Shown here one piece after another: positions 38,215-63,660 of a stretch of DNA of 64,000 nucleotides. This DNA comes from Fragilariopsis cylindrus CCMP1102. Its lineage: Eukaryota; Bacillariophyta; Bacillariophyceae; Bacillariales; Bacillariaceae. The stretch is taken from contig FMBT01000321.1 in the NCBI GenBank assembly GCA_900095095.1, positions 248,001 through 312,000 of the forward strand, read 5' to 3'. Under the pieces are notes generated by a model. That model did not search any database. It was not told the origin of the DNA and worked only from the letters and a program-made list of their open reading frames with translations. The translations under genes were made by a program, and so were the position numbers. Within the stretch, counting starts at the first letter, position 1. Each line of letters opens with the position of its first letter.

Positions 38215-38625
38215 TCCAAAGTTTAAATCAATTATAGCTATGTATGGGCTAGTTATATCATATATATAGTTGCTGGCGCGTTCCAGCTCAAGGTGGGTCA
38301 GTTTTGCGCAATAAAGGACAATCTGCGGACAGACGCTTCTACTACAACACGCGCTATGCAGTGAAGTACTAACTATTGGGGGGATTTTTAGCTTCTACAG
38401 AAGCTCTTCTTTCCTATAACTGACCAATCATAATCCATGCATTGAATCAAGACGCATCGACAGGTGTAGTGGTGTCAGCGAAGCCCTGCTAGTTAACTAA
38501 GGAGAATTCCGCCCATATGGTGTACTTGTGATATTATTTTTTTCCATCGCGGGATTAATTCATCGCGCACCTATGCAGTGAATAAGAGGAAAATTCATTA
38601 TTAACACATGACAATGGGAATGTAT
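38215..38625 (+). repeat. dispersed repeat C, copy 1
   Basis: CTACAACACGCGCTATGCAG and CGCGCACCTATGCAGTGAAT match, in order, sequence at 62283-62598. The left end (TATGGGCTAGTTATATCATA, then GTTGCTGGCGCG) matches 23331-23400 in inverse orientation. No coding capacity is seen. Confidence 0.75.
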
Positions 38626-39145
38626 TGAAACGGACCTCCATGGATATCGATCTATCTAATAAAAGCTTATGAGACGAAATACAGATGTCTGTACTCTTAA
38701 CAAGGACAAAAAATTTCGATTTAATCTGATGTATTTTTAACTACTTAAACTCCCTCTTAGTAAAAGACACACATGATCGGATTTTTCGAAAAAAACACGT
38801 CCTACATACCCGTTGATAATGGGTCCTCTCTTAATATACCAATAAGAATAAAAATTATCGCATTAGCTAATATAATAGTAATAGAGACATCTGTATTAGC
38901 AGTTTATCTATTAGTCCATTATTTGATTTTTAATCTTCCTCTCTTATGCACCTCTTCCTGGCGATTTGAAATATGCCTTCCAGTCATGTGCGACCCTATA
39001 GAATTTTCCCCAAATGACCAAATACAACCGAAATTTTTTACCCTTGTTAAGAGTATAGATATCTATATTTCGTCTCATAAGCTCTTGTTATATAAAGCGA
39101 TATCCATGGAGGTTCGATTCAATACATTTCCATTCACATGCTTAT
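38605..39145. mobile_element. fold-back element with ~115-bp inverted arms
   Basis: The left arm at about 38605-38720 (ACCTCCATGGATATCG, AGCTTATGAGACGAAATA, ACTCTTAACAAGG) recurs inverted at about 39030-39145. Identity is near 85-90 percent by eye. The roughly 310-bp centre contains part of a 165-residue ORF (38773-39270) with no recognised domain, which I do not call as a gene. Confidence 0.75.
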
Positions 39146-39299
39146 CGCGTCATTTAAAAACAGTTCTCGGTTTTAGCGCGGAAGCCGGACAATGGCAGAA
39201 AATTGATCGATTGTATGGTACGATTGTACGGTATAAACCATATCTTAAGATATACTATCATACGGTATGATCATACGTTGGGTTCGTACAGTGGAAAAT

Positions 39300-39580
39300 A
39301 TTTGAAATCAACGCGTACAGTAGAAAATCCTATCTGGAATCGAGTATTTTAACGCGTGATTTGGGACCGATACGTTACGCGTAACGTATCGGTTCAAACA
39401 ACACGCGTTAAAATACTCGATTTGACGTATCGGTCCCAAATCACGCGTTAAAATACTCGATTCCAGATATGGTTTTTTTACCAAAAAAAAAATTGGAGTT
39501 GACTGTAATGTATGTATTGGTCCAAAAACACGCGTGTTAAAATACGCGATAAAAATGAAAAAAAATTGGACTTGACGCGA
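39300..39580. repeat. ACGCGT-rich palindromic cluster
   Basis: A perfect 44-bp inverted repeat (39331-39374 with 39426-39469) encloses a perfect 28-bp palindrome (39366-39393, centre ACGCGT). A third copy of ACGCGTTAAAATACTCGAT lies at 39403, and looser copies are near 39309 and 39530. Confidence 0.95.
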
Positions 39581-39914
39581 TTGCAGATGTAAAATAATAG
39601 TAGCTAATAAGAAGGAGACACATCAACAAGTCAAACAACATCAAAAATGAACAAAGTAGTAAGGTAGGTACCTTGAGATGACGAATTCTCCTACTATTTG
39701 GGTGCTTAGAGAATACTACAATGAAACAAATTCAGAACAACTGTAGCATATAATGGTGATAGGTCTAATTTAACTGCTATAATTAAATTCCATTCCTTTC
39801 AAAATGTGTCGAATTTTTCCATTTTTTAAATTATCTTCCTTCTTATTTCAACAACAACAACAACAATCACAACCACAACCACAATCTTGGCAATGGCACT
39901 TTGGTGTTGAAATA
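39581..39914. other. intergenic spacer right of the palindromic cluster
   Basis: No gene is supported. The short plus-strand ORF at 39804 is the antisense of the following gene's tail and a CAA-repeat. Confidence 0.5.
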
Positions 39915-40424
39915 TTAGTTGTAGAAGCTAGCTTGCTGCGAAAAATGCTGATCTTCATCGTACGAGTCGTCATCGGAATCAAACTGGAGTTTTGAGGAAG
40001 GTAAATCAGTAACAGTGTCATCGTCAGTGTCATTATCTTCATTACTATCATCGCCATCATTACTATCATTGCTATCATTACTATCATCACCATGGCCACC
40101 ATGGCCACCATTGAGTGTTTCACCAACAACAAGTTCTTCATTACCATCGAATCCATCAGCAGCAGCAGCAGCAGCTGCGGCTTCATCATCATTGATAATA
40201 CCGATAGCTACAACACCAACTGGTGGAACACCAACTCCCAATCCAAAGGAATCAAAAGCTTGTTCTAGATTTTCCTCAAATCCATCATAATCAGTAGAAC
40301 AGAACAATACACCATCTAATGTGATGTGAACTTTACCTGTGAAGTTTTGAAGACTACATGTGATACACTTCTTATCACCGTTCAACTTAGAAAAAGGAAT
40401 GAAGATTGGATTTGAGTCCGGCAT
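39915..40424 (-). CDS. small acidic protein of unknown function
   Basis: The ATG at 40424 gives 169 residues. The first 60 residues form a compact beta-type segment: MPDSNPIFIPFSKLNGDKKC, ITCSLQNFTGKVHITLDGVLFCS. An Ala run and a strongly acidic Asp/Ser/Asn tail follow, ending FSQQASFYN. No family is recognised. The frame extends upstream of this ATG through hydrophobic sequence that looks like leader DNA. It is divergent with the gene at 40827, about 400 bp apart. A plasma or nuclear location cannot be told. Confidence 0.6.
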   Translation of the reverse strand: MPDSNPIFIPFSKLNGDKKCITCSLQNFTGKVHITLDGVLFCSTDYDGFEENLEQAFDSFGLGVGVPPVGVVAIGIINDDEAAAAAAAADGFDGNEELVVGETLNGGHGGHGDDSNDSNDSNDGDDSNEDNDTDDDTVTDLPSSKLQFDSDDDSYDEDQHFSQQASFYN

Positions 40425-41433: not shown

Positions 41434-42039
41434 TCATACAACACTATCGTCAATACTGTCTTGCTCTTGCCGGCGACAATCGATTAGATTTAACTGCAAA
41501 TTGGTTGATAGCTCTGGTTTAGCTGCGTATAAAACTTTGAACTGTTCAACAGCATTCTTTCTTCTTTCTCTCCTCAGGTCTTGTTCTCTTTCTGCTTTCA
41601 CAGGCCCTCTATCCGTAGTAAACTTTCTATTGCGCTGTTTTTTTACCACCTCTGATATTTTGGCAATGGTATTATTCTGATACAGCTTCTCTTGTCTGGC
41701 ATAATAATTAGCAGCGCCTGCCTTATCACGGATTTTTCCTATAGTAGTACATTTTCTGTATGTTTGATGTGCTTGCTCAACCCAGTCTTCATAGTATTCA
41801 GCAATACCATCGTAAACATCCATCATCTCAACTATATGATCAGAAACATAGTGTCGTTTGGGAGTCTTCATTGACAAGTGTAATCGTTTTATTGATTTGT
41901 CAATCAATGGAATAACTTCTCGCAGCTGATCCAAGACTGCTAATTTTTTGACTGGATCTTTCATTACATACTTTGGTGTTCTTGTAAGTGATACCATATG
42001 TGATGTCATCAAGAAATGAAGCTCAAATGACTCAAACAT
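41434..42039 (-). CDS. possible transposase-derived fragment
   Basis: The ATG at 42039 gives 201 residues. The stretch SMKTPKRHYVSDHIVEMM, DGIAEYYEDWVEQAHQTYRKC recalls the K-x-H...DH...E...E..H pattern seen near the C-terminus of some eukaryotic transposases. The tail is charged (RGPVKAEREQDLRRERRKNAVEQF). The match is from pattern memory, not a domain search. If right, the N-terminal catalytic part is missing, so this is a remnant. The 5' end overlaps the antisense start of the CCCH-finger frame at 42003, so one of these starts is probably wrong. Confidence 0.4.
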   Translation of the reverse strand: MFESFELHFLMTSHMVSLTRTPKYVMKDPVKKLAVLDQLREVIPLIDKSIKRLHLSMKTPKRHYVSDHIVEMMDVYDGIAEYYEDWVEQAHQTYRKCTTIGKIRDKAGAANYYARQEKLYQNNTIAKISEVVKKQRNRKFTTDRGPVKAEREQDLRRERRKNAVEQFKVLYAAKPELSTNLQLNLIDCRRQEQDSIDDSVV

Positions 42040-42623
42040 TTCTTCGACTTCTTCTTCTGGGACCACACTCTCTGGAATCGAAAGAGAATAAGAAACGATG
42101 CATAGAAAAATTCGCTCGGTTGTCCTTCTACAAGCACTATATGAAATGCCGAGAAATGAAAAAATCTACTATGATATTGGATAGAAAAGGATTACGCCCA
42201 AATAACGTGTGTTTATGCGGTTTCATCCGAGGGTGTATGCAACAATTAAGGACGAAATATTTTCCATCATTACCCATGAAGTTACAGGTATTGGCGGCGT
42301 ATGCCGTTCCTAAAGAAGCTATTCACGAAGCAAGTATACATACCGAATGCTTGATTCGTTCAAAGAATTCTGCACGGTGCATCCAGCGGCAATGGAGGTC
42401 GTATCTGCATTATAGAACACGGGTCTGTAAATTTAACATGCGGGGTAGCTGTCGCCGTGGAGTACACTGCACCTTTGCTCATGGTAACCACGATGTGCGA
42501 TTTTTTTTTGATCATAGTAACCACGATGTGCGAAAGAAAAATACTGGTCCAACGCCAGTCGATGACTGCATTAGCAATCTTGATGAATTCCTCCTTTGGA
42601 TGCAGGGTGTTTGTCGTCGTTAG
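42003..42623 (+). CDS. CCCH zinc-finger protein with IQ motif
   Basis: A 206-residue frame from ATG 42003; ATG 42141 is an alternative that avoids the antisense overlap. ARCIQRQWRSYLHYR is an IQ-type calmodulin-binding helix. It is followed at once by CKFNMRGSCRRGVHCTFAHG, a C-x7-C-x5-C-x3-H zinc finger of the RNA-binding class. Downstream, HGNHDVRFFFDHSNHDVRKK comes from a short direct DNA repeat around a T8 run. An RNA-related role is inferred from the finger. The combination is unusual, and I know no named family with it. Confidence 0.55.
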   Translation: MSSRNEAQMTQTFLRLLLLGPHSLESKENKKRCIEKFARLSFYKHYMKCREMKKSTMILDRKGLRPNNVCLCGFIRGCMQQLRTKYFPSLPMKLQVLAAYAVPKEAIHEASIHTECLIRSKNSARCIQRQWRSYLHYRTRVCKFNMRGSCRRGVHCTFAHGNHDVRFFFDHSNHDVRKKNTGPTPVDDCISNLDEFLLWMQGVCRR

Positions 42624-59213: not shown

Positions 59214-60319
59214 AGTCTACTCTTTAACAAATACACTCTCCATAACAAATACACCGTATCGGCTTGCACATGATTCGTGACTGTGTAGTCAGTAATGTGT
59301 CCCGTGTAGTGACTCATTGACATAAAAATAATCAAACCAATATAAAAACTAATTCATGCAAAGATTTTACTAGTATTTGTTAGTCTAGTATATAACAAAA
59401 ACTTTAGCATCAAGTATATACACCTGAAAACTCTTTTTTTTGAAAGATTAAACTATTAAGTTTACAATAGACCTATTGGATGGAGAAATATCACATTCCT
59501 TAGTCTCGTAAGCCTACTGGAATCTCACAATATAGGCTCACACACACACAGCACACAGCAAATAACCCCCCAAAATGGCCCATTTGCAGTGTTTTATGGA
59601 CATACAGTACACTCAAAAAGGTAAATCATCCCAGAATATGTAAATGGAGTGAACCATACATACCAAAGGGAGCTAACTCTTGGTGCTTTGTGTTAATTAT
59701 CCAGCTCAGGTGCGCAAAAAAGGGGAAACCCTGTTTTGGGGCCTAAATGGCCCATTTTGTGGTTAATGCAGCCCTACAACTTCATAACCTCCATAGAAAC
59801 CTAAGCATTATGTGATCTTTGTATGTATAGGTATAATGGTGATCTCCATATAATTTTTCAGGTGTACTAAGTCCATATTGATGGTGCATCACGACCTTGA
59901 TTGCATATAGTTTTGTTATTTTGAGCATTTTAGTGTGCTTCAAAGAGTTGGGTTTTCACCGATGACACCCTAAATATATGTATGGCTTTCTAAACAATGG
60001 TAGTATCCAATTCTTCTATGATTAAGATGGATCCTTAGCTATTTTATCTGTGATTAGCACTCAAATATTTTTGCAATGTGTGTATTTTTGGCCAATTTAT
60101 GTCTATTTTATTTTTCCCGTCCCACCACAACACAATATGGCAAATGTTCCAAGTAGTGTTGGTGTATCTTGATCATATGCATATATGATATTGAAGGTAT
60201 CTAGATGTTCAAACCATGGCCCAACTGCTATTTTTGATGTTGTGCTAGCCTATTATTTCTAAATACTACTACTTTTTGTTATGGAATTATGACATGTTGG
60301 CCGAAATGTGATGTTGAGG

Positions 60320-62282: not shown

Positions 62283-62598
62283 CAGGCATGTTCCGGCTCA
62301 ATGTGGCTCGTGTTTGCCAACTGTGTTACAAAATCCTACAACACACAGTATGCAGTAAAGTACCATTTTTCTAGAATTTTTAACTATATCGTAGCTCCTC
62401 AAACCTGCTACAGTACCTATCCCCACACAAATCTATAGATTCCAACTTAATGTGTGGGCTATGCTAGGTATTGTGTTTTAGAGCATCCACCATACAGTTA
62501 AGGGTCCCAAAAGGTTATTGTCAAAAAAGTTGAAAATAATGATTTATTGCACACCTATGTAGTAAATAGGCAGAAAATTCCTTATTAATGCACCATGC
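62283..62598 (+). repeat. dispersed repeat C, copy 2
   Basis: Matches 38279-38625 in order: TGTTCCGGCTCAATGTGG, CTACAACACACAGTATGCAG and GCACACCTATGTAGTAAATA. Confidence 0.75.
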
Positions 62599-63320: not shown

Positions 63321-63660
63321 ATCATATCCATACCTACAAGGTCCTCATAAGGCCATTTAGGCCTCAAAACAGGGGTTTCCACTTTTGTGCGCACCTAAGC
63401 TTGATCATCAACATAAAGCACCAGAAGTAAGGTGCACCCCATCCATATGTTTTGGGATGATTCACCTTTTTGAGTGTACTGTATGTCCACAAAACACTGT
63501 AAATGGGCCATTTTTTGGGGTTATTTGATGTGTGCTGTGTGTGAGTCTACATTGTGAGATACCAGTAGGCTTACAAGACTAAGGAATATAACAGGTCTCC
63601 ATCCAATAGGTCAATTGTAAACTTCATAGTTTAATTTTCCAAACAAATGACTTTTTAGGA

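Follow-up and report, generated by a model that had tools for sequence, protein, structure and literature searches.

In the 64,000-nucleotide stretch of Fragilariopsis cylindrus CCMP1102 analyzed here (the window), a perfect palindrome is tentatively best explained as one copy of a modular array that lies in the spacers beside the ORFs of several mobile elements, is exchanged between them, and is bound by a protein as an accessory or regulatory site. The array occurs in multiple copies beside unrelated ORFs, occupies or is missing from the same spot in close copies of two element families, shows a mosaic pattern at one locus, and has no second intact core in any array read. The window is part of contig C303 of the genome (67.9 Mb, 818 contigs), and the ORFs described throughout are mechanical open reading frames, that is, putative genes.

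Structure of the array in the window

The core palindrome, P (ACCGATACGTTACGCGTAACGTATCGGT; 39366-39393), is perfect over 28 bp and centered on ACGCGT (39377-39382), as the original prediction had it. The left perfect arm of 45 nt (39331-39375, plus strand) includes an inverted module, M (39338-39358), and M copy 1 (39402-39422, plus strand) mirrors it about the core. Together with P, these two modules form an 85-bp imperfect palindrome that is symmetric about the core. The right perfect arm of 45 nt (39425-39469, plus strand) consists of a half core and M copy 2 and partly duplicates the right half of this palindrome; 39384-39422 is partly duplicated onto 39425-39462 with 90% identity. The gap between the two perfect arms is 49 nt, and the arm length becomes 52 nt if two mismatches are allowed. 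The prediction of perfect arms was therefore correct, except that their length is 45 nt and not 44. A decayed third half-unit (39512-39551, plus strand) retains a half core (80%) and M (81%). ACGCGTTAAAATACTCGAT recurs exactly, in direct orientation, at 39403 and 39443, and more loosely near 39530; the copies at 39403 and near 39530 had been listed before, but the third, near 39309, turned out to be the hexamer ACGCGT (39311) inside a 29-bp iteron. The inverted repeat is located outside recognized coding sequence, as the original prediction had assumed. For comparison, 50 sequences as long as the window were generated under a first-order Markov model. Perfect palindromes in them reached at most 22 bp and perfect inverted arms (gap ≤200) at most 16 nt, each maximum occurring in 1/50; the palindrome and arms of the window are far above this chance expectation. 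When the plus strand was folded as single-stranded DNA, the z score was -15.7, in keeping with the possible cruciform. The 45-nt arms probably arose by duplication of the right half of the M-P-M palindrome and may have been kept identical by recency or fold-back conversion.

On the left side of the array, a palindromic iteron (ACTATCATACGGTATGATCATACG; 39254-39277, plus strand; C303:287254-287277) with one mismatch belongs to a family that forms 32-bp tandem iterons elsewhere. It is followed by a 29-bp iteron stretch (CGCGTACAGTGGAAAATATTTGAAATCAA; 39285-39333, plus strand), whose 49 nt recur unchanged at the end of a tandem array of 14.6 copies on C726. This tandem array (L011:4085-4507) is succeeded by other tandem repeats, and the 29-bp iterons are also found at L012 (C73). 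A separate fold-back repeat with 109-nt arms (38613-38721 and 39026-39134, 87% complementary) lies directly left of the array, and related sequence is present on C31 (L016:7222-7315). The right part of the window contains an inverted repeat pair (59423-59752 and 63351-63659; 332 aligned columns, 82% identity).

The same structure was found on C407, which overlaps C303 (99.5% over 10,000 bp compared, collinear with the window, with one 1-nt gap in an arm), and on C265 (96% over 281 bp, the arms having one gap and one mismatch). An assembly chimera, which had been considered as a source of the inverted arm, is unlikely in the light of these two copies; C407 may derive from the same reads, and C265 is an independent copy. 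A block comprising the array and the neighboring ORF's 3' end is common to the window and C265 (39213-40062, 95.6%), and the stretch 39544-40083 is also found on C354 (88.6%). The 169-aa ORF (39915-40424, minus strand), with its 3' end toward the array, belongs to a small multicopy family with DNA matches at C265:511129, C308, C700, and C762, and a Pfam search with it gave nothing above the cut-off. Inspection by eye of the flanks of its paralogues revealed iteron-like sequence and no M-P-M at C265:511 kb, C308, and C700, half a unit at C714, and neither iteron nor M-P-M at C384. Another ORF (41434-42066, minus strand) contains a remnant of a 717-aa protein of C265 (57% identity over 88 aa), which on that contig sits beyond the array.

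Conservation of the core and composition of the arrays

The 20-bp core of P, ATACGTTACGCGTAACGTAT, is present at 13 genomic places (C407 overlapping the C303 of the window), and its inner 20 bp are identical in all of them. The search was conducted with a 24-bp pattern allowing up to three mismatches, and a reversed-pattern control gave 0 matches; mismatches among the 13 copies are confined to the outer four positions of the pattern. In the local alignments through the core among eight arrays, which are non-independent comparisons of copies found via the core, the core matched 20/20 in 28/28 pairs, whereas the non-core columns agreed, for example, in 78/112 (window-C354), 36/47 (window-C86 right), 24/39 (window-C733), 79/89 (C733-C52), 132/142 (C31-C52), and 156/160 (window-C265). 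Locally aligned flanks between array lineages are mostly 60-90% identical, and the contrast between core and flank, like the presence of at least one core per array, is partly ascertained by the search. A plain comparison of 20-base flanks (means of 10.0 and 9.2 of 20) mixes non-homologous modules and overstates divergence, and it was set aside. A second intact 20-mer was found in none of the 12 core-bearing arrays read; the nearest second cores have one mismatch (C733) or five (C354), and the remaining arrays have half sites. C714 and C297 hold arrays or part-arrays that lack an intact core and are decayed relatives. Together with the 13 core copies and the mobile-element ORFs alongside, they speak against the suggested fresh fold-back insertion, if this is meant as a local event. 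The invariant 20-letter core hints at a working site with a putative function, and the replication- or protein-binding site named in the original prediction is a putative candidate on the same grounds.

The arrays consist of M arms, P, and, in most cases, iterons. The module order is ORF end, M arm, P, and iterons in the window, C265, C354, C733, C31, and the C52-type copies. Iterons of 29 bp are present in the arrays of the window, C265, and C354; those of 32-33 bp, of the type TATCCAAGGTATGATCATACCGTATGATAGTA, stand three to four in a row, with 32-33-bp spacing in L015 and L020, and the 22-bp iterons (TTACTAGTGATTTTCAAAAAAA) number about four. Spacings of 22 and 32-33 bp are close to whole helical turns, and 29 bp is not. 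The left array of C86 is composed of three 153-bp units of M arms, one of which has P. Iterons also occur without P next to other hairpins, which differ in sequence, on C297 (L066:344-491, 56-nt arms, 89%) and C178 (L067:366-427, 29-nt arms, 90%). Further iteron places detected by sequence search are on C195, C155, C462, C610, and at C297:489865.

Mobile elements beside the arrays

The contexts of the arrays are a Crypton, a 5.2-kb element, a 588-aa ORF on C31, the low-copy element block of the window, C265, and C354, and C86. Cryptons carry terminal direct repeats of 4-6 bp and no terminal inverted repeats. The Crypton on C733 encodes a protein with an NDC10_II domain (PF16787, E = 3.2e-27), of the tyrosine recombinase type by profile match, and the adjoining 212-aa ORF matches GCR1_C (PF12550, E = 8.4e-6; 26.4 bits against a cut-off of 23). 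This combination resembles that of CryptonF, described in the Crypton paper as a tyrosine recombinase (YR) with GCR1_C; CryptonS is recorded there in oomycetes and one diatom (PMC3212892). The right homology edge of the C733 element is near L015:4660. A second copy, interrupted by one stop within its matched stretch, lies on C736.

The 5.2-kb element is 98-99% identical over about 5.2 kb among C518 (L018), C412 (L019), and C52 (L020), and 97-99% identical over 2.9-3.1 kb to the copy on C337 (L027). One of its ORFs, for a RusA-like resolvase, has a RusA domain (Pfam E = 2e-5, above cut-off; PHROG E = 7e-7). Its large ORF, open over 912 aa on C337 and broken on C518, C412, and C52, is a putative tyrosine recombinase by motifs recognized by eye alone; Pfam/HMM searches with it gave no match, and its comparison with the C733 protein gave no meaningful similarity. 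Structure models were poor, with pLDDT values of 34 for the recombinase-like stretch and 47 for the RusA-like protein. Sequence like AAAAATCCG is found at both ends of the element copies, and one head-to-tail junction was seen by eye on C52. As read by eye, the element fits short shared ends, no target-site duplication (TSD), and copies joined end to end.

The 588-aa ORF of C31 has a second copy on C195, which ends at 62320; C195 has iterons at 63480-63535, and the core is absent there. This ORF and the 717-aa ORF of C265 may be transposase-like, judging by their appearance, and Pfam gave no support for a transposase in either. On C86 (L014:2834-8990), about 5.5 kb are flanked by two arrays that are inverted relative to each other, with 113-nt arms (95%) and a distance of 5.6 kb between the cores; the enclosed ORFs of 336 and 366 aa are related to each other (26% identity over 191 aa), and no family was assigned to them. 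PDB sequence searches with the RusA-like, 699-aa, 534-aa, 588-aa, and 717-aa proteins gave nothing usable.

Presence, absence, and exchange of the array

On C182, C324, and C139, the 5.2-kb element, with a protein that is 97-98% identical, has an unrelated spacer where C52, C412, C518, and C337 have the array (234 bp of this alternative spacer were searched, and the C139 copy is known from search rows alone). Likewise, C81 carries a Crypton copy with 94% identity whose sequence is different where the array would be. The large frame of the 5.2-kb element is open in two of the three copies without the array (916 and 914 aa) and in one of the four with it (912 aa). The array is dispensable for its host elements.

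A 105-bp piece of the alternative spacer is common to C104, C315, and C524 (95-98%). It is located at C104:4198 and 9521, C315:14225 and 19558, and C524:100203, and the spacing of ~5.3 kb in the first two contigs is what direct terminal repeats would show if they belonged to another element. When four sequences were aligned, the C31 array agreed in its middle with the 5.2-kb element in 71/72 columns and with the Crypton in 38/70, whereas at its left edge it agreed with the Crypton but not with the 5.2-kb element. Judging from this single internal segment and single edge, the C31 array appears to be a mosaic of two other arrays. From the presence and absence at the same spot in two families, together with this mosaic, we infer an exchange of modules between families. 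The element families appear to trade spacers, the array being one such piece, and the older state may have been with or without the array.

Proposed function and alternative explanations

Here, we propose, as our tentative first choice, that the array is an exchanged accessory or regulatory site of the mobile elements. The arrays would spread between co-resident elements via ectopic recombination or gene conversion. P and the iterons would be bound by a dimeric DNA-binding protein, encoded by an element or by the host, and the bound P and iterons may have an accessory or regulatory role. Such a putative bound site would agree with the constancy of the core, with the absence of a second intact one, and with iteron lengths (22 and 32-33 bp) that come close to whole helical turns. 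The core site of tyrosine recombinases has inverted 11-13-bp arms around a 6-8-bp spacer at the crossover point (PMC3212892). The window core can be read as 11-6-11 (arm-spacer-arm); however, it is internal in the 5.2-kb element, and the array is probably not an obligatory recombination site because core-less element copies are also dispersed. Being dispensable, the array is hardly the crossover site.

A close rival, and quite possibly the correct explanation, is a neutral mosaic spacer, in which the repeats would arise from slippage or fold-back repair and be passed on by recombination, and the core would be identical because of recent spread and self-correction of the palindrome. The dispensability of the array agrees with neutrality, and so do the patchwork nature of the alternative spacer with its 105-bp piece, the hairpins of different sequence beside the iterons at C297 and C178, and the small changes by which the arms of C407 and C265 differ. 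On the other hand, the non-core columns have changed from 4/160 to 15/39 while the core has 0 changes in the 28 alignments, which are non-independent and concern copies chosen by the core. Moreover, self-correction equalizes the two halves within one copy and not separate copies.

The bound-site reading can be extended to a common trans-acting machinery (e.g., for replication or cruciform resolution) that would serve all of the unrelated element families and thereby lead them to trade a palindrome-plus-iteron cassette; the RusA-like Holliday-junction resolvase of the 5.2-kb element would be a candidate partner. We regard this extension as unlikely.

An element acting at the RNA level is improbable. 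Read-through transcripts of the adjoining ORFs would fold into a long hairpin, which would either mark 3' ends or supply a small-RNA pathway with an effect on every element that carries the array. The minus strand of the window copy does fold strongly as RNA (-92.4 kcal/mol, z = -15.9), and long inverted arms are also present in C265, C297 (56 nt, 89%), and L015 (47 nt, 83%), but the inverted repeats listed for the C52-type array are at most 17 nt, and the loopless core is better suited to DNA than to RNA. The 3' end of an ORF faces the array in 7/8 contexts, the exception being C86 left, and this carries no weight because 6/8 are expected with two flanking ORFs of random strand.

Less probable still is the possibility that the array is itself a MITE or foldback transposon, with other elements as its insertion targets. 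The internally repetitive inverted repeats resemble the Foldback/Galileo termini (PMC3573991), and several unrelated elements are hosts. In the two comparisons of copies with and without the array, however, the array replaces another spacer instead of forming a clean insertion, and its edges vary by locus, with neither defined ends nor target-site duplications seen by eye.

The MCB cell-cycle box (ACGCGT) of a host gene, also raised in the original prediction, is highly improbable: six of the seven ACGCGT of the window do cluster inside the array, within about 220 bp, but a Markov model predicts 6.1 over the window as a whole, the copies belong to one repeat family whose M reads ACGCGC in five related arrays (C31, C52, C337, C412, and C518), and the array is at the 3' side of a repeat-family ORF, whereas MCB boxes belong to promoters of G1/S genes. 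Nothing direct spoke for integron-like cassettes, protelomerase hairpin telomeres, or centromere sites, which were weighed as analogies.

Comparison with known systems

Galileo, a Foldback-type transposon of Drosophila, has long, internally repetitive terminal inverted repeats (TIRs) and chimeric copies within one transposon family (PMC3573991). The arrays share with the Foldback/Galileo elements of that account the tandem units inside inverted repeats, the variable length, and the chimeric copies that suggest sequence exchange. In Galileo as described there, the partners in the exchange are subfamilies of a single transposon, whose ends are formed by the repeats, whereas the array is situated in the spacers of families with unrelated ORFs and is internal in the 5.2-kb element. 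The word stem "palindrom" is absent from the text of the Crypton paper (PMC3212892), and the close Crypton copy on C81 is without the array.

The homologous regions (hrs) of baculoviruses are scattered palindromic repeats with enhancer and origin function. They are a model for a multi-copy bound palindrome, and the arrays resemble them as dispersed units with a conserved palindrome. Unlike the situation with hrs, no viral protein was recognized at any locus examined. Neither the viral collection (IMG/VR) nor the prokaryotic collection contains an exact match of the core, and single-protein searches of the viral collection with three array-adjacent proteins, which reach only close relatives, found none; a viral origin was accordingly rejected.

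A search of an open-access library found no paper on an element that pairs a recombinase with a RusA-like resolvase, and a eukaryotic element with a recombinase-like protein and such a resolvase would be unusual. Nor did this narrow search, by which absence is unproven, find a report of one palindrome module common to unrelated element families. Should the core prove to be a working site, elements that differ in their mobility proteins would have one cis-acting part in common, much as plasmids share origins. Such a shared part, if true, would provide a testable handle on cooperation or parasitism among the mobile elements of protists.
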